Part shown: positions 3,630 to 49,131 of the stretch, in pieces
Numbering within the stretch: position 1 is the first letter of the stretch
Layout of the letters: every line of letters starts with the position of its first letter
From: Phycisphaeraceae bacterium D3-23
GTDB taxonomy: Bacteria > Planctomycetota > Phycisphaerae > Phycisphaerales > Phycisphaeraceae
DNA length: 64,000 nt
Reading direction: 5' to 3'
Assembly: GCA_039555135.1 (NCBI GenBank)
Contig: CP114179.1
Span: 3,844,001 to 3,908,000, forward strand
Program-made: the position numbers and the translations under genes
The notes under the pieces: model-generated
Told to the model about the DNA's origin: nothing
The model's input: the letters and a program-made list of their open reading frames with translations, nothing else
Database searches by the model: none

Positions 3630-4505
3630 CTACTCCCGCCCGAGTCCCTTTGACAGATAGACATCGGCCATGTCGTCTTCGCTCTCCAACGAGATCGTCC
3701 CCCCATGACCATCGGCGAACGCAATGTTCATACCGGAGCGCGAGTGGCGTTCGTTGGTCTTGCCGTTGCTGTTATCAACGAAGACGGAGTTGGTGCCCGC
3801 TGTGCCGCCGAAACCGATCGTGTTCCAGGCGTCGAGCAGGACGTTGTCGTCGAGCCGGTTGAAGAAGGTGCTCCATTCGCCCCCATCGATGCGTGGCTCG
3901 CCATCGCCCGTAAACATGACACTGGATGGCTCGTGGACCATGTCGAAGTTGCCCAGGACGCGGTCGGTTGCGCCCTCGAATCCAAGCAAGGCTTCGTTGT
4001 GTCCGTAGCTGCTTGGGCCGGCGAGCACCCCCTCGCCGATCGAAGGCCCGCCGGGGACAACCATGGCGAGTTGCGTAATGACGTCTACTTCGTTGTCTGC
4101 GGGGCAGATGAACGGGGAGACTTTTGACAGCAGACTCATGTCAGCAAGCATCTGGGCCTGACTGGTCAGGCTGATGTCGTAATCCATGTATTGCCCGCCG
4201 AGCGAAGCGGTCCATGGGGCCGGGATCGAGTTGGGCCCAAACGTGACGCTGTTGGCACGGAACTGCCTGTAGCGGTCTGCAGTGAATCCGGTACTGAGCT
4301 GGCCTGCTGCAGGAAGCTGCCCTTTCATGTCGCCCGCATGTGCATGGGCAGCGGTCGCGTGCTGCCTCGTATTGGAGAGGCACTGGGAATTGCGTGCCGC
4401 GGCGCGTGCCGCGCCTAGTGCCGGCAGCAAGATCGCGATCAGGAGTGCGATGATCGAGATGACGACCAAGAGTTCGATCAGGGTAAAGGCAGACTGTTTT
4501 CGCAT
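3630..4505 (-). CDS. Prepilin-type N-terminal methylation domain protein with H-x-DG tail
   Basis: A 291-residue protein that starts with a type IV pilin/type II secretion pseudopilin leader. MRKQSA is followed by [19 protein letters not shown], with the conserved Glu at +5 of the predicted mature chain. After a variable body the C-terminus has R-H-S-R-S-G and AFADGH, the H-x(9-10)-DG signature of a large planctomycete-lentisphaera family. The spacing here is ten residues rather than nine. It is the last gene of a minus-strand cluster (ECF sigma, FecR/LamG, PEP-CTERM, this). Prepilin peptidase processing and surface assembly are expected from the leader; the exact role is not known. Confidence 0.88.
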
Positions 4506-8257: not shown

Positions 8258-9001
8258 TTAGTTCGGGCGGGCCTGGAGGTTGCCGGGGTTGGCGCCGTGG
8301 CGGACGCTGTATTCGACCTCGTCGTCGTCGGTGAGGATGTGGTCGCCGGAGGGTACATTGGCCCAGGCGACGGAGCCGTCGACGCGTGCCGAGTTGGTTC
8401 CTTCGGGCTGTAGGCCGCCGTTGCTGCTGCCTTTGGCGTGTGGCACGATGAACCAGTTGGACGTCTCGGTGCTGCCCAGCGTGAGGTCGGTCCACAGCAC
8501 GGTGCCGGGGTCGTCCTCGAGGGTCCGAGGCGGGGGCAGCGTCCCGCCCCAGCGCCAGTCGTCGGGCACATGCGCCAGGTAGTAGTAGCCCCACATATAG
8601 ACGGGATCGGAGCCCTCGGTGAAGGGCCAGGAGTTCTCGGGGTTCCAGTCCATCGACGGGCAGTACATGAAATCTGAGCCGTGCTCGATCGTGTAGTCGT
8701 CGAGGTAGTCCACCCAGAGGTCGCGTGAATCGAACGGGGTCGACCACGGCGCGACGCGGTGTGCCTCGTTGCCGTGGGTGCTCGTCAGGAGCAGGCCCCG
8801 GCGTTCGGGCCAGATGCCCTTGTGGTCTGTGGCTGCGGCGTTCCCGGCGATCCCTAGCTGCTTGAGGTTCGAAGCGCACTTGGTCCGCTGGGCCCCGACT
8901 TTGGCCGCCCCTAACGCCGGAAGGAGGATGGCGATCATGAGCGCGATGATCGAGATGACCACTAGAAGCTCGATCAGGGTAAAGGCGCGTCGGCGCTGCA
9001 T
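8258..9001 (-). CDS. Prepilin-type N-terminal methylation domain protein (second copy)
   Basis: A 247-residue pseudopilin-like protein. The leader MQRRRA is followed by [19 protein letters not shown], almost identical to the protein at 3630-4505. The rest of the sequence is quite different: Trp-rich, with phrases such as [15 protein letters not shown] and ARVDGSVAW near the end. The tail [11 protein letters not shown] keeps the His but not a clear H-x9-DG. It is the last gene of the LacI > PEP-CTERM > SGNH > prepilin-type run. The leader predicts inner-membrane insertion and prepilin peptidase processing. Confidence 0.86.
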
Positions 9002-27474: not shown

Positions 27475-27579
27475 GTAAGGTGGGTGGAGCGAGTCCGCGA
27501 GCGGTACCCACCGCGCGCTGCCAACATTCTTGAGTTCCGCGGTGGGTTGCGTTCGCGGACTCACTGCACCCACCCTACA
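27475..27579. repeat. Family A (RAYT-type) repeat, inverted pair
   Basis: Left copy 27475-27515 contains GGTGGGTGGAGCGAGTCCGC; right copy 27537-27579 is its inverted form. Stem arms GGTGGGT and ACCCACC are kept in both. Spacer of about 20 bases. The pair lies in the gap upstream of the AgrE-like gene and of the small secreted protein. Confidence 0.88.
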
Positions 27580-28052: not shown

Positions 28053-28129
28053 GTAGGGTGGGTGGAGCGAGTCCGCGAGCGCAACCCACCAGGCGTGCCA
28101 GTGAACAGTTCACAGTGAATAGTGAACAG
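28053..28129. repeat. Family A unit and family D unit in the secA leader region
   Basis: A single family A copy (28053-28090, GTAGGGTGGGTGGAGCGAG to CAACCCACC) is followed after about ten bases by a family D copy (28099-28129, with GTGAACAGTTCACAGTGAA). Both lie between the small secreted protein and secA. Confidence 0.85.
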
Positions 28130-41528: not shown

Positions 41529-42701
41529 ATGACCCACCCCCAAGCCGACCCCGCCGCCTCCACCGCCGTCGTGATGGCCGGCGTCCCCGCAGTCAACAAG
41601 GCCCTCTACCACGCGACACGCTTCGGCGTCGGCGACCCGGCCGCGCTGCTGTTCCTGCCCGACGGCAACGGCGGGTTCGACCGGCTCTTCATCGTCCGAG
41701 ATATCGAGATGGACCGCGCCAAAAAACACGCCCGGGCCGAGCTCGTCGCCTGCCCCGCCGACTACGCGCCGGAGGGTGGCTTGTCCGGAGACCGCGAGAC
41801 CGCCACCGCCCAGGCCGCAGCCGAGGCGCTCGTCCGTCATGGCATCGACACGGCCATCGCCGACCGCACCCTCCCGCTCATCTTCGCCCAGCACATCGGC
41901 GAACGCGGGGTCGAGGTGTTTTACGACGAGGACCTCGGCGTCGCTGATCGCCGGGCGAAGGACGACGAAGAGATCGCCTGGCTGCGCGAAGCACAGCAAG
42001 TCACCGAGCGCGCGATGGGGCTGGCCTGCCGTATGGTCGGCAACGCAACGGCCGGGAAGGGCGGCGTCTTGCAGCACGACGGCCAACCGCTCACCGCCGA
42101 ACGCGTCCGCCTCGCCATCGACATCTTCCTCCTGGAACAGGGCTACACCAACCCGCGCAGCATCGTCGCCGGCGGCGCGGCGGGCGGCGACTGCCACGAG
42201 CTCGGCGCAGGCGACCTGTACACCGGCCAGTCCGTCATCGTCGACATCTTCCCCCAGAACCGCACAACCAAGTACAACGGCGACTGCACCCGCACCGTCG
42301 TCCACGGCGACATCCCCGACGATCTTCTGGCCATCCACAAAGCCGTCGTCGAGGCCAAGCAAGCCGCCGCCGCCGCGACCCGCGCGGGCACCACCGGCGA
42401 AGCCGTCCACGCCGCGACGACGAAAGTCATCGAAGCCCACGGCTACGCGATGGGCTTCCCCACCGACGACCACCCCTTCACCATGCCCCACGGCACCGGC
42501 CACGGCATCGGCCTCGACGTCCACGAGCCGCCACTCCTCGATAAGGGCGGCCCCGAGCTCGTCGTCGGCGACGCCCTCACCATCGAGCCGGGCCTCTACA
42601 AACCCGGCTACGGCGGCGTGCGCATCGAAGACATGGTGATCGTGACGGAAGACGGCTGCGAGAACCTGAACACGCTGCAGGAAGGGTTGGAGTGGAGATA
42701 A
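41529..42701 (+). CDS. M24-family metallopeptidase (Xaa-Pro peptidase-like)
   Basis: A 390-residue pita-bread-fold peptidase. Two-metal ligands are visible: Asp in VDIFPQNR, Asp in NGDCTRT, His in PHGTGHGIGLDVHE, Glu in TIEPGLY and Glu in VRIEDMV. The N-terminal 150 residues are the variable creatinase-type domain. It cleaves an N-terminal residue before proline in characterised relatives. A family A repeat begins 12 bases after its stop. Confidence 0.92.
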   Translation: MTHPQADPAASTAVVMAGVPAVNKALYHATRFGVGDPAALLFLPDGNGGFDRLFIVRDIEMDRAKKHARAELVACPADYAPEGGLSGDRETATAQAAAEALVRHGIDTAIADRTLPLIFAQHIGERGVEVFYDEDLGVADRRAKDDEEIAWLREAQQVTERAMGLACRMVGNATAGKGGVLQHDGQPLTAERVRLAIDIFLLEQGYTNPRSIVAGGAAGGDCHELGAGDLYTGQSVIVDIFPQNRTTKYNGDCTRTVVHGDIPDDLLAIHKAVVEAKQAAAAATRAGTTGEAVHAATTKVIEAHGYAMGFPTDDHPFTMPHGTGHGIGLDVHEPPLLDKGGPELVVGDALTIEPGLYKPGYGGVRIEDMVIVTEDGCENLNTLQEGLEWR

Positions 42702-42712
42702 GACATCGGCCG

Positions 42713-42753
42713 TAGGGTGGGTGGAGCGAGTCCGCGAGCGCAACCCACCGCGA
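42713..42753. repeat. Family A repeat, left flank of the RAYT gene
   Basis: GTAGGGTGGGTGGAGCGAG, then TCCGCGAGCGCAACCCACCG. It ends 15 bases before the RAYT stop. Confidence 0.92.
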
Positions 42754-42767
42754 CCAAGCAGTCCACC

Positions 42768-43295
42768 TCAATCTAAGTCAAGTGTAGAGTTCTTCATCAG
42801 TGCGTCCCAATCCGGTTGCTGCCAACCCTGATCTATATAACGATGGATCGAGGAGTGAGGCCAATCCGTCGTATGTTTCACATACCCATGTTTCACCGGG
42901 TTGTAGTGGATGTAGTTGACATGTTGTTCAAGGTCCTCTTCATCTCGGATCAGGTGTTCCCAGAACCGACGCTGCCAGATGCCGCGTTCACCTTTTTGTA
43001 TTCGGCTCGGTGTCGTCGTTTCTTCTTTGGGGATCTGCCGGCTGAACCGTGACTTGATCTTCTGGATACGTCTGGAGAAATCAGGGTCTCCGGGTGGCAG
43101 TGTCATGATGCAGTGCAGATGATCGGGTAACACGACGATCGCAGGAAGATCGAACGGATGCTTTTCGCGCGCTGTTGCGATGGCAGTGCGTAGCACATCA
43201 TTGTGATCCACAAGCAGCGTGTGCCTGCGGTCCCAGAGGTTGATCGTAAAGAAGTATGTGCCGCCGGGGCGGTAGAGTCGTTTGTAGTTTGGCAT
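42768..43295 (-). CDS. REP-associated tyrosine transposase (RAYT, IS200-like HUH family)
   Basis: A 175-residue single-strand DNA transposase of the Y1/TnpA_REP type. The HUH motif is LPDHLHCIMTL (His-Leu-His), the catalytic Tyr is in NYIHYNPVKHGYV, and RPGGTYFFTINLWDRR is the usual N-terminus. RAYTs are domesticated IS200/IS605 relatives that move or maintain REP palindromes in trans. The gene is flanked on both sides by inverted copies of the family A repeat (42713-42753 and 43316-43358). The same repeat is scattered in the window. All active-site residues I can check are intact. Confidence 0.93.
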   Translation of the reverse strand: MPNYKRLYRPGGTYFFTINLWDRRHTLLVDHNDVLRTAIATAREKHPFDLPAIVVLPDHLHCIMTLPPGDPDFSRRIQKIKSRFSRQIPKEETTTPSRIQKGERGIWQRRFWEHLIRDEEDLEQHVNYIHYNPVKHGYVKHTTDWPHSSIHRYIDQGWQQPDWDALMKNSTLDLD

Positions 43296-43315
43296 AGCCA
43301 GACCCGTGGGTTCGA

Positions 43316-43358
43316 CGCGGTGGGTTGCGCTCGCGGACTCGCTCCACCCACCCTACGG
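43316..43358. repeat. Family A repeat, right flank of the RAYT gene
   Basis: Inverted copy of the left flank: CGCGGTGGGTTGCGCTCGCG, then GACTCGCTCCACCCACCCTA. It lies 20 bases upstream of the RAYT start. Confidence 0.92.
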
Positions 43359-43372
43359 TTGAGCCGATATCC

Positions 43373-44023
43373 CTACGCCTCGGTCCCAAAGATCCGGTCC
43401 CCCGCATCCCCTAGGCCCGGGAGGATGTAGCCCTTTTCATTGAGTTGGCGGTCGATGGCGGCGGTGTAGATCGGGACATCCGCGTGGTCTTTGCGCAGGC
43501 GGGCGATGCCTTCGGGGGCGGCGACGAGGCAGAGGAAACGCAGGTCGTTGCAGCCGCGCTCCTTGAGCACGCGCACGGCCGCGCTCGCGCTGCCGCCGGT
43601 TGCGAGCATCGGGTCGACCAGCAGCACCGGGCCGTCGGCGATGTTGGCGGGGAGTTTGACGTAGTAGCTGACGGGCGTGAGGGACTTCTCGTCGCGGAAC
43701 ATACCGACGTGGCCGACCTGGGACTCGGGGATAAGCTGGGCCATGCCCGTGGCCGGGCCCATGCCCGCGCGGAGGATGGGGACGATGGTGATGGGCCCGA
43801 CGAGCTGCGTGCCGTCGTAACTTTCGAGCGGTGTGCAGACGGTGTGCGGTTTCCGGGGGGCGTCGCGCAGGGCTTCGTAGGCGAGCAGTTGGCCGATGCG
43901 TTCGGTAAGGTCGCGGAACCGGCCGTGCGGCGTGGCGGTGTTGCGCAGCTCGGTCTGGAGGTGCGCGACCAGCGGGTGGTCGACGAGGTGGACGTGCGGG
44001 TCGTCGGCGGTGGGGTGCGTCAT
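43373..44023 (-). CDS. upp: Uracil phosphoribosyltransferase
   Basis: Salvage enzyme that turns uracil and PRPP into UMP; 216 residues. The PRPP-binding loop is LLVDPMLATGGSASAA, the substrate phrase ILRAGMGPATGM and the C-terminal ILPGLGDAGDRIFGTEA is canonical. I start at 44023 (MTHPTADDPHV); extra in-frame residues upstream come from a repeat. Confidence 0.95.
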   Translation of the reverse strand: MTHPTADDPHVHLVDHPLVAHLQTELRNTATPHGRFRDLTERIGQLLAYEALRDAPRKPHTVCTPLESYDGTQLVGPITIVPILRAGMGPATGMAQLIPESQVGHVGMFRDEKSLTPVSYYVKLPANIADGPVLLVDPMLATGGSASAAVRVLKERGCNDLRFLCLVAAPEGIARLRKDHADVPIYTAAIDRQLNEKGYILPGLGDAGDRIFGTEA

Positions 44024-44043
44024 TGGAAGCCAATGGGTGAGAG

Positions 44044-44136
44044 GTGGGGCGGGCATCCTGCCCGCCGAGGTACGTGATGCCAAGCGTAACTCATTCACCG
44101 CTGCGCCGCGATGGCGGGCAGGATGCCCGCCCCACC
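44044..44136. repeat. Family E-type inverted pair between upp and the GT39-like gene
   Basis: GTGGGGCGGGCATCCTGCCC (44044-44063) and GGGCAGGATGCCCGCCCCAC (44116-44135) form hairpins and also pair with one another. The right copy encodes the last residues of the GT39-like protein (GGAGILPAIAAQR). Confidence 0.88.
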
Positions 44137-46326
44137 GAAATCAGCTCCCGCGTGCCCGGCCTCAAGCTCCGCCGGTGGCAACCGGTACAGCGGCACGGGC
44201 CAGCTCGGGTCCAGCGCGGGCCGCCACGACTCGGCCAGCGCAAGCAGCAGGTCGGGCGGCAGGTGTTCATCGAAGCCGTAGGTCTGCGCGAGCCGGGCGA
44301 CCTCGGACCAGCCGACCCAGACATGGGTGATGCCTTGGGCGCGGAGCGCCGCGTTGATCTCGGCGATATCGCCGTTGGCGGCGCGCGCGATCTGCGCGAG
44401 CGGGTTGCTGTCGAACGCGGAGCCGTACACGATCGGGCGTTCGATGTAGAGCAGCGAGCTGTTGTCGCCGACGATGAGTGTTTTTGTTTCGGGCCCGAGC
44501 AGGTTGATCGGGTGCATGCCGGGCATCGCGAGCTGGTCGGGGTGGTTGGGGTCGCCCAGCGAGTCGATCGCCATCCAGATCGGGCGATGGACCGTGACGC
44601 CGTCGTCTTCCAGCTCCGGGGCCTGTTGCCACAGCGTGGTGAGCGAGACGGTGAGCAGCGTGAGGATCAGGAGCATCGTCGCGATCGGCGGGAGCACGCC
44701 GCGCAGGGTCTGCGTGACTTCACGGACCCGGCCCGCGCCGATGGCGAGCATCACGCTGCCGGGCACAAGGGTGTAGATGAGGAACCGGCTTTGCAGGTGC
44801 GTTGTGAGCCGCCAGAAGACGAGCTGCCAGAGCAGGAAGGCGATGAGTACGAGTGCGGTGCGCCACGTGCGCGGGTGGCCGAGCATGAGCGCGCAGCCGG
44901 TGAGCACGGCGAGCCAGAGCACGGGGAGCCCACGCTCGCTGCTGAAGCGTGCGATGTTGTTGGATTCGGGCGGGACGGGTGTGCCGCCAAGCGCGCCGTA
45001 ACCGATGTTGCGTAGCCATTGTCGGGAGAGCGCATCGAAAGTGCCGGCGTGGTTTGCGTCGAGCATGTGTGCGGTGTGCCAGCGGTCGGAGAGGGTGTTG
45101 TCCCAGTGCCCGCTGCCGAGGAGGGTGGTGGCGAAGGGGAAGATCGGGTTGCCGGTGGCGATGGCGTTGCGTGCGAAGTACGGCGCGAGGGTGATGAGCC
45201 CGGCGATGGCGATGGCGGCGCCGAGTTGGAGGCGGTGCGAGATTACGGTTTGTTTCGCGCCGGCTTTCGTGTGCGTGAGTTTGTCGGGGGACAGGGCGAT
45301 GACCGCGATGGGCAGCGCGATCATGGGGCCGGCGGGGAGTTTGCACAGTGTCGCTGCACCGAGCAGGAGGCCGAGCGCCGCACCGCGTCGCCAGCCGAGC
45401 GGGCCGGGCTGCAGCGCGATGGCTAAGGCCGCTGTGCTGAACCCGAGCGCGGCCATCTCGTTGTAGGCGAGCGATCCCGTGACGACGACCCACGGCGTCA
45501 GCAGCAACGCCCCCCCGGCCACGACCGCGGCGGGGGTCGGCCCAAAGCGGCGGGCGGCTTCGACGACGCCCCACACCGCGAGCAGTGCAAAGCTCGCGTG
45601 GAAGACCTGGCAGGCGTAGACCGCGTCGCGCATCGCCGAGGAGCCACCGCCGAAGATCAGGCCGATCGCGGTGTAGCTGTGCTCGATGAGGCCCGGCAGG
45701 AAGCTGTAGACGTTGTGGTCGAGCGGTGTTGCTCGGCCGACCGCGATCCACTCCTTCGGGATCTGCAGGTGGTAGCTGGTGACGTCGTATGCGAAGGCCT
45801 CGACGCGCCACAGCGTACCCGGCGGGCAGGCGGCCGCGACGAGGAGCAGCGCGACGCCGGGCGCAAGGGTAGGTAGTGTCCACGGCCAGGCCCGGGCGGC
45901 GAGGTCGAGCTGGTTGAGTTGCTGGCGCGATTGATACAGACGCCAGAGCAGGATGCCGACGCCCAGCGCGATGGGGAGCAGGGCGGTGATATGGTTGACG
46001 CCGACGATCCAGAACAGCACGAACAACGCCAGGAGCAACGCGGCCATGCCGAGCGCGGCCTGCGCGAGTGCGCTACACCCGGTGGGATTGGGCAGCAGCC
46101 ATCGGCGGATCGGATCGCCCAGCCCGAACGCGGCGGCCCACAACAGCCCGGCCACGCCGAGCGCGGGGACGAGGTTGAGCGGCATGCCCAAGGCCCATTG
46201 TGCGCCGGGCACAAGCGCGCCGAAGATCGCGAACACCATGACGAATACAAACGCGGCGGCGCATGCAAAGAACACCAGCGCGGGCTGGGGGATGCGTCGG
46301 CTCGGCTCTGTTGCAGGATCGGGCAC
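44095..46326 (-). CDS. GT39/PMT-like membrane glycosyltransferase
   Basis: A 743-residue integral membrane protein with about 12 or more hydrophobic helices. An extracytoplasmic Asp and the phrase FAYDVTSYHLQIPKEWI follow the early helices, in the place of the GT-C catalytic Asp motif. The C-terminal 150 residues are a soluble domain (HRPIWMAIDSLG to the end). The layout fits GT-C enzymes that move sugars from polyprenyl phosphate. The GTG at 46326 is the start. The last 14 residues are encoded by a repeat hairpin. The acceptor is unknown. Confidence 0.72.
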   Translation of the reverse strand: MPDPATEPSRRIPQPALVFFACAAAFVFVMVFAIFGALVPGAQWALGMPLNLVPALGVAGLLWAAAFGLGDPIRRWLLPNPTGCSALAQAALGMAALLLALFVLFWIVGVNHITALLPIALGVGILLWRLYQSRQQLNQLDLAARAWPWTLPTLAPGVALLLVAAACPPGTLWRVEAFAYDVTSYHLQIPKEWIAVGRATPLDHNVYSFLPGLIEHSYTAIGLIFGGGSSAMRDAVYACQVFHASFALLAVWGVVEAARRFGPTPAAVVAGGALLLTPWVVVTGSLAYNEMAALGFSTAALAIALQPGPLGWRRGAALGLLLGAATLCKLPAGPMIALPIAVIALSPDKLTHTKAGAKQTVISHRLQLGAAIAIAGLITLAPYFARNAIATGNPIFPFATTLLGSGHWDNTLSDRWHTAHMLDANHAGTFDALSRQWLRNIGYGALGGTPVPPESNNIARFSSERGLPVLWLAVLTGCALMLGHPRTWRTALVLIAFLLWQLVFWRLTTHLQSRFLIYTLVPGSVMLAIGAGRVREVTQTLRGVLPPIATMLLILTLLTVSLTTLWQQAPELEDDGVTVHRPIWMAIDSLGDPNHPDQLAMPGMHPINLLGPETKTLIVGDNSSLLYIERPIVYGSAFDSNPLAQIARAANGDIAEINAALRAQGITHVWVGWSEVARLAQTYGFDEHLPPDLLLALAESWRPALDPSWPVPLYRLPPAELEAGHAGADFGGAGILPAIAAQR

Positions 46327-48925: not shown

Positions 48926-49131
48926 GTAGGGTGGGTGGCGCGAGTCCGCGAGCGATACCCACCAGGGAAATCCGAGTTTGGGTGCCACACAACTGCCCGG
49001 TCCGCCGGGCTGCTGTGTGCGAATGGAACAAAACACCTTGGGTCCCGCACACAGCAGCCCTCAGAGCAGGGCAGTTGTGTGGCACCGGAAGTGGTGGGTA
49101 GCGCTCGCGGACTCGCGCCACCCACCCTACG
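48926..49131. repeat. Family B inverted pair nested inside a family A inverted pair
   Basis: Outer arms: family A copies at 48926-48963 and 49092-49131, inverted. Inner arms: family B copies at 48980-49020 and 49048-49086, inverted, with hairpins GCCCGG/CCGGGC and GCCCT/AGGGC. It fills the whole gap between ispF and nnrE. Confidence 0.9.

Follow-up and report, generated by a model that had tools for sequence, protein, structure and literature searches.

A REPtron in Phycisphaeraceae bacterium D3-23: a group-2 RAYT gene, its GTAG-REPs and the possible mobility of the segment they bound

Does a RAYT gene that lies between inverted copies of a dispersed repeat stay in place while its repeats multiply, or can the whole segment, gene included, reach new sites? 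This question is raised by a locus within a 64,000-nucleotide stretch (the window), which corresponds to positions 3844001-3908000 of a single-contig genome of 4.62 Mb (G000). The features of the locus are collected in the table below.

The RAYT gene and its repeat family

The ORF has no internal stop and encodes the motifs DHLH (H59, H61) and YIHYNP (Y128), so that the intact His-Leu-His and catalytic Tyr motifs described in a sequence-only reading of this DNA are indeed there. In an alignment of 16 sequences, H59, H61, Y128, N132 and P133 are invariant. The Tyr motif continues as YIHYNPVKHG and thus contains the RAYT signature NP(L/V)(R/K)xG defined in PMC2817692. The protein scores 205.8 bits against the NCBIfam model for REP-associated tyrosine transposases (NF047646, cut-off 80) and does not reach the cut-off of the IS200 transposase model NF033573 (29.3 bits, cut-off 55). 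Among solved structures, it matches Escherichia coli TnpAREP (4er8) at 2.3e-42, the next best match being at 0.025. Its motifs are those of group 2, subclass 2.2 in Table 1 of PMC6006769, except for WQ instead of WE; WQ is also present in E. coli TnpAREP according to the comparison with 4er8, and this protein is placed among the same tree rows as the window RAYT. The gene has a GC content of 52% versus 66% for the window. A search of G000 itself did not detect a close second copy.

Table. Features of the REP/RAYT locus and family A units in the window (window coordinates)
Feature	Position	Strand	Remarks
RAYT / TnpAREP gene, 175 aa	42768..43295	(-)	group 2, subclass 2.2-like; H59, H61, Y128
Left bracket REP	42712..42749	(+)	GTAG tag; stem of 7 bp (GGTGGGT/ACCCACC); G.A mismatches in the crown
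Right bracket REP	43319..43356	(-)	inverted, same sequence as left bracket REP
REP, left REPIN arm	27475..27512	(+)	1 mismatch to pattern
REP, right arm of REPIN starting 27475	27541..27578	(-)	28-bp spacer
Single REP	28053..28090	(+)	identical to bracket REPs
REP, left arm of pair	48926..48963	(+)	129-bp spacer
REP, right arm of pair starting 48926	49093..49130	(-)	

The two repeats that bracket the gene, recognized from the outset as inverted units of one family (family A), are identical over 38/38 bases, carry GTAG outward at both ends and lie 18 and 23 bases from the ORF. All seven units reported for the window exist, although their earlier ends were off by 0-4 bases. The unit measures 38 bases and not about 40, and the view that it is unusually long had to be given up, E. 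coli REPs being 29-37 nt in the accessible part of PMC8266576. Of the 7 window units, 6 carry the internal element GCGAGTCCGCGAG without a mismatch. The dispersal suspected from the window extends to the complete genome, where family A occupies 83 places at up to 3 mismatches (0 for the reversed-pattern control). An 84th unit comes from the listed matches of a separate pattern search, which gives at least 84 units, two versions of which are present as 13 and 11 identical copies. Across the 84 units, the first four positions read G (81 units), T (80), A (82) and G (81), as in GTAG-REPs. The proposed stem also holds, with the commonest pair at each of the 7 basal positions kept in 74-84 of 84. 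The inverted REPs on either side of the gene thus belong to a family with many genomic copies; together with the passed NF047646 model and the 4er8 match, this bears out its identification as a RAYT. The REPtron in the window is real and intact, and of a known kind, although its host has been little studied.

Part of the family A units are arranged as REPINs. Within 700 bp of each other, we counted 22 head-to-head pairs, 1 tail-to-tail pair and 0 head-to-tail (tandem) pairs, versus means of 0.29, 0.27 and 0.58, respectively, expected at random. The head-to-head spacers measure 28-31 bp in 14 pairs, 85-144 bp in 6, 569 bp at the RAYT gene and 641 bp in one, and 40 of the 84 units stand outside such pairs.

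Other repeats accompany family A. A second REP family, GTGGGGCAGACATTCCTGTCTGCC, is found at 84 places at up to 3 mismatches (44+40, control 0), including 2168-2191 and 2239-2262 in the window. Two of its units bracket another RAYT gene (L001, G000:1311570-1314725), which passes the cut-off of 80 with 88.6 bits; G000 therefore has a second REPtron. Close to the first one, an inverted pair GTGGGGCGGGCATCCTGCCCGCC at 44041-44138 probably represents a REPIN from a related GTGG family. The 8 Rfam matches obtained for 42000-44200, among them microRNA matches at 44041-44138, all fall below gathering scores. Pairs of GTGG-REPs are nested in the spacers of family A pairs at G000:1732312-1732502 (L014) and 4485738-4485925 (L338). 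The family A spacer at G000:1592515 contains a long GGGTGCCACACA palindrome, and the spacer at 48964-49092 has GGTGCCACACAACTGCC at both ends, like the element in the former. The hairpin cap GAGTCCGCGA is common to family A and two repeat families with other stems: ACGCCGACGCT..., which flanks a third, weak Y1 gene (L003, G000:2955402-2958662; 24.4 bits against a cut-off of 80), and ACGCCGAGGSCT..., found at 24 places in the genome (control 0). A dispersed repeat at 4404-4487 and 8916-8983, distinct from the REPs, is 87% identical to a stretch of the same-genus genome G002.

Sites and copies of REP-RAYT-REP segments

The sequence-only reading had suggested comparing RAYT flanks across relatives, and this comparison placed the genes of G000 and G002 at different chromosomal sites. 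The two RAYTs are sisters on the tree (100/98) and 67% identical, and their sites are non-orthologous. In both genomes pepP and upp are adjacent (82% and 89% identical, respectively), an arrangement that was not found within the stretch examined of other same-genus genomes. The gap between them contains REP, RAYT and REP in G000. At the orthologous place in G002 (C7), it contains a REP, an unrelated ORF of 173 codons with 50% GC between flanks of 70% GC, and a slightly degenerate inverted REP, without RAYT. The G002 RAYT lies at C3:47.6 kb, and its flanks are orthologous to G000:697547-700584, with 89% identity over 408 bp on one stretch and 85% over 343 bp on another. This region of G000 carries a REP in the matching position and another gene, lipoprotein-like by eye. 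Because the RAYTs (67%) are less similar than pepP (82%), two separate acquisitions fit these data as well as one move.

Near-identical copies were found within other genomes. RAYT loci had been sampled from 123 genomes, 36 of which contributed at least 2 loci, with not every copy included. Among the 18 same-genome pairs that aligned over at least 450 bp, 10 are 88.8-97.1% identical over 636-943 bp; they come from 8 of the 36 genomes (G364, G607, G593, G379, G719, G059, G656 and G144). In G593, G719 and G364, both copies lie on one contig of 3.2 to 5.4 Mb, which speaks against assembly error. An internal stop codon interrupts one of the two copies in G593, and likewise one of the two close copies in G719. 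We also noted two RAYT cassettes in tandem in G379:C1 (L230, L231), with a third elsewhere on the contig, and six RAYT matches in G059.

We measured cassette borders in 15 pairs, 10 within and 5 between genomes, a set that includes neither G379 nor the G144 pair. An outward tag was detected at 21 of the 30 ends and none at the other 9. At 18 of the 21 tagged ends, the homology runs out 0-15 bp beyond the outward REP tag. At the remaining 3, the nearest outward tag is 50-118 bp beyond the homology, which begins within about 12 bp of an oppositely facing unit. Several ends read AG-n-GTAG or CTAC-n-CT; CT is the dinucleotide cut by E. coli TnpAREP in the available text of PMC8266576. Ten of the 15 pairs show no further similarity in the available flanks, and the other 5 show 1-3 more matches.

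The G364 pair allows a relative dating. Its copies are 97.1% identical, while one of them is only 90.8% identical to its counterpart in the genus-mate G338, so the duplication looks younger than the G364/G338 split. At the site of the other copy, G338 has a lone REP, degenerate by eye, without RAYT. Only the right flank of this site is collinear with G338 (4.4 kb, 92%); the cassette has a 63-bp repeat on either side, and about 3.6 kb leftward are unmatched in the G338 stretch. Taken from alignments of this kind, our results suggest that in several genomes REP-RAYT-REP units relocate and increase in number, contrary to the published view.

We therefore consider it likely that this REPtron, a group-2 RAYT with its cognate GTAG-REPs, can do more than copy REPs: since the gene sits between two outward-facing REPs, the whole segment can behave as an element and reach new sites. 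The steps would follow E. coli TnpAREP biochemistry. Once single-stranded, the REP strand would form a hairpin that contains an irregular zone. The RAYT would recognize the GTAG tag and this zone, cut beside the hairpin through Tyr128 and join the end elsewhere. Such cutting and joining would copy head-to-head REP pairs, that is REPINs. With the RAYT between two outward REPs, the 645-bp REP-RAYT-REP segment could appear at new sites in the same manner. By this analogy the window RAYT would be active or recently active, as proposed before, and capable of cleavage and transposition.

Alternatively, homologous recombination at scattered REPs could swap REP-bounded stretches, with the RAYT not acting on its own gene. 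In all three cases compared, namely both G000/G002 sites and the G338 site, one genome has a REP where the relative has the RAYT cassette, and the same bracket encloses different genes in G000 and G002, which speaks for such swapping. Against it, most cassette sites share nothing else in their available flanks, and homologies of 38 bp are short for ordinary recombination. We regard this explanation as possible, though somewhat doubtful.

A domesticated and immobile RAYT, inherited vertically or rarely transferred while only REPINs are copied, is the published view (PMC8049555, PMC6006769 and PMC2817692, as far as their available text goes); PMC8049555 calls RAYTs "single-copy genes" that "do not copy themselves". 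It agrees with the lack of a close second copy in G000 and with a divergence that is greater between the G000 and G002 RAYTs than between their pepP genes. However, the gene is not confined to a single site, as it lies elsewhere in G002, the one relative compared by site, and near-identical copies are present in 8 other genomes. This explanation, already weakened, seems to us unlikely.

The bracket in G002 raises the further idea that a REP pair is a general cassette border and that the RAYT, or REP recombination, also moves unrelated single genes placed between outward REPs, in the manner of a gene-capture system assembled from domesticated single-strand transposase parts. Besides the 173-codon ORF, two outward REP brackets without RAYT enclose one ORF each: 191 codons with 50% GC at G002:C16:188870-189536 (L322), and 209 codons with 62% GC at G000:2091704-2092420 (L340). 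The idea rests on these three ORFs. Two of the bracketed ORFs have no Pfam match; a SMI1/KNR4 look of the 191-aa product is a guess, and we make no claim of it. No head-to-head bracket of 300-1500 bp around a non-RAYT gene was seen among the listed matches of 7 further family and order genomes, searched with the exact pattern and judged by eye. The idea thus draws on one genus and is quite improbable.

Lastly, that the bracket arose by chance, REPs being often intergenic and so liable to stand on both sides of a small gene of any kind, is hardly credible and is refuted for the RAYT bracket, though not for the non-RAYT ones: the bracket REPs do lie between genes and many units are unpaired, but the two flanking units are identical and inverted, head-to-head pairs with spacers of 500-700 bp number 2 (one being the RAYT bracket) versus 0.07 expected, a count reached in 13 of 5000 random placements, and 172 of 254 group-2-like RAYT proteins have at least 2 matched GTRG hairpins within 260 bp, the other 82 having none by the criterion used.

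The hairpin crown and RAYT residue 82

Above the basal stem, crown positions 14.29, 17.26 and 18.25 are A.G, G.A and A.G, each in 76 of 84 units, which gives the majority of crowns a tandem G.A step at 17-18/25-26. In the units ending GAT, 46 have G13.A30, which makes a second tandem G.A possible at 13-14/29-30; the GCA version, to which the RAYT bracket REPs belong, has G-C at 13.30. The stem GGTGGGT/ACCCACC recurs in family and order relatives, with a crown that varies by lineage.

According to the available text of PMC8266576, E. coli TnpAREP requires the irregular zone to be unpaired, and Lys82 contacts this zone. We classified the hairpin nearest the gene in 97 first-sampled loci (two of them entered twice). 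GA/GA at a fixed place was found in 34 and the AA/GC form of E. coli in 6; GA/GC was found in 3, including that of the window. A further 28 loci had another form and 14 a short plain loop, while 12 had no hairpin. Of about 150 positions, residue 82 was the one that best separated RAYTs with GA/GA-REPs (35) from those with AA/GC (6). When more loci and an altered classing rule were used, it was again first among the loci added later, tied with position 140. A small residue at 82 occurs in 30/30 GA-type versus 6/27 AA-type RAYTs, a count that leaves out, of the 254, bulge (31), plain (31), mixed (28), none (14), other (11) and unmatched REP (82). The window RAYT, with Ser82, is outside the 30 GA-type proteins as its bracket REPs end in GCA and are classed GA/GC, not GA/GA. 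The later loci alone give 13/13 versus 3/22, but they do not count as independent: the division into small and bulky residues was made after inspecting data that already included them, and the tree offers few contrasts. Four changes of hairpin type suffice on this tree, with at most 4 independent pairs, 1 of them on well-supported branches. No other position appears to distinguish GA-type and AA-type RAYTs better than residue 82 does, a lead from alignments that is confounded by phylogeny.

We also considered whether the stability of the tandem G.A could discriminate between strands. The predicted folding energy of the tagged strand is lower than that of its complement in 82 of 84 units, by a mean of about 1.1 kcal/mol. 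Perfect-palindrome REPs also differ by about 0.4 kcal/mol, probably from the dangling tag. The folding energies thus show no strong bias between strands, and we rejected this candidate.

Relatives and known systems

Family A-like stems tend to go with the RAYT. At least 2 stem-pattern matches are present in 10 of 12 genomes with a full-length RAYT at least 54% identical, and in 13 of 89 other genomes (Fisher p 3e-6 versus the 12); matches were counted on both strands, so one palindromic unit may score twice, and the 89 include G004, which carries a cut RAYT piece at a contig end. The expectation that units would not be as common without this RAYT is thus partly upheld, in that a much smaller share of those genomes have them, yet they persist in some genomes where no close RAYT was found. 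For instance, G034 (7.4 Mb, single contig) has 18 matches and a RAYT relative only 27% identical.

A RAYT relative at E <= 1e-25 is present in 49 of 392 Planctomycetota genomes. Among 84,980 species we found at least 80 loci with RAYT relatives, those listed being nearly all proteobacterial at 50-62% identity. In a midpoint-rooted tree of 96 rows, 12 of the 17 planctomycete proteins, including the window RAYT, form one group (96/90) adjoining proteobacterial rows; the remaining 5, 38-46% identical, are outside. As rows were picked by closeness to the query, this tree shows kinship and not the direction of transfer. Viral contigs yielded just 3 relatives out of 40 pattern matches.

The closest described system is the E. 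coli REPtron (TnpAREP 4er8, y/z REPs). Both have an HUH protein with a catalytic Tyr, alignable over 164 residues, and inverted REPs beside the gene with a GTAG tag and an imperfect hairpin that becomes irregular after 7-8 bp. They differ in the irregular zone, which is AA/GC in E. coli and G.A-rich in the window, where the hairpin also has a second G.A zone and a loop of TCCG; in residue 82, Lys in E. coli and Ser in the window RAYT; and in that the window system belongs to Planctomycetota and its gene differs in site between two genomes of one genus.

A planctomycete version has been described before. In the part of Di Nocera et al. 2013 (PMC3733652) available, 24 GTAG families are described with GTAG tag, stem and RAYTs flanked by repeats, head-to-head dimers being the commonest arrangement in most; Planctomycetes are named and R. 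baltica is listed among the hosts. Family A resembles them in these described features. GTAG-REPs with RAYTs being known, Planctomycetes included, what is new is the window itself as a member. Family A also shares inverted REP pairs as the repeated unit with the REPINs of Bertels and Rainey 2011 (PMC3116915, available text), but has another stem and, in some spacers, other nested repeats. IS200/IS605 elements likewise place an HUH Y1 transposase between terminal hairpins and form near-identical copies at several sites, as seen here in relatives. In contrast, the Tyr motif of the window RAYT is Y...NP (YIHYNP), not Y...Q (classes: PMC6006769), and its system has GTAG tags and a genome-wide REP population.

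The idea of RAYT duplication is not new either, since PMC3686654, in its available text, describes some pseudomonads with a second RAYT at a novel site, for which it considers either duplication or transfer. In the literature searched, the coverage of which is incomplete, we found no report of REP-bounded identical RAYT cassettes. RAYTs are cited as domesticated transposases, and if the cassette mobility is true, "domesticated" needs qualifying. The REP/RAYT system would then be one where mobility is directly testable, with REPs as borders, and the correspondence between residue 82 and the irregular zone may offer a simple handle on its specificity.
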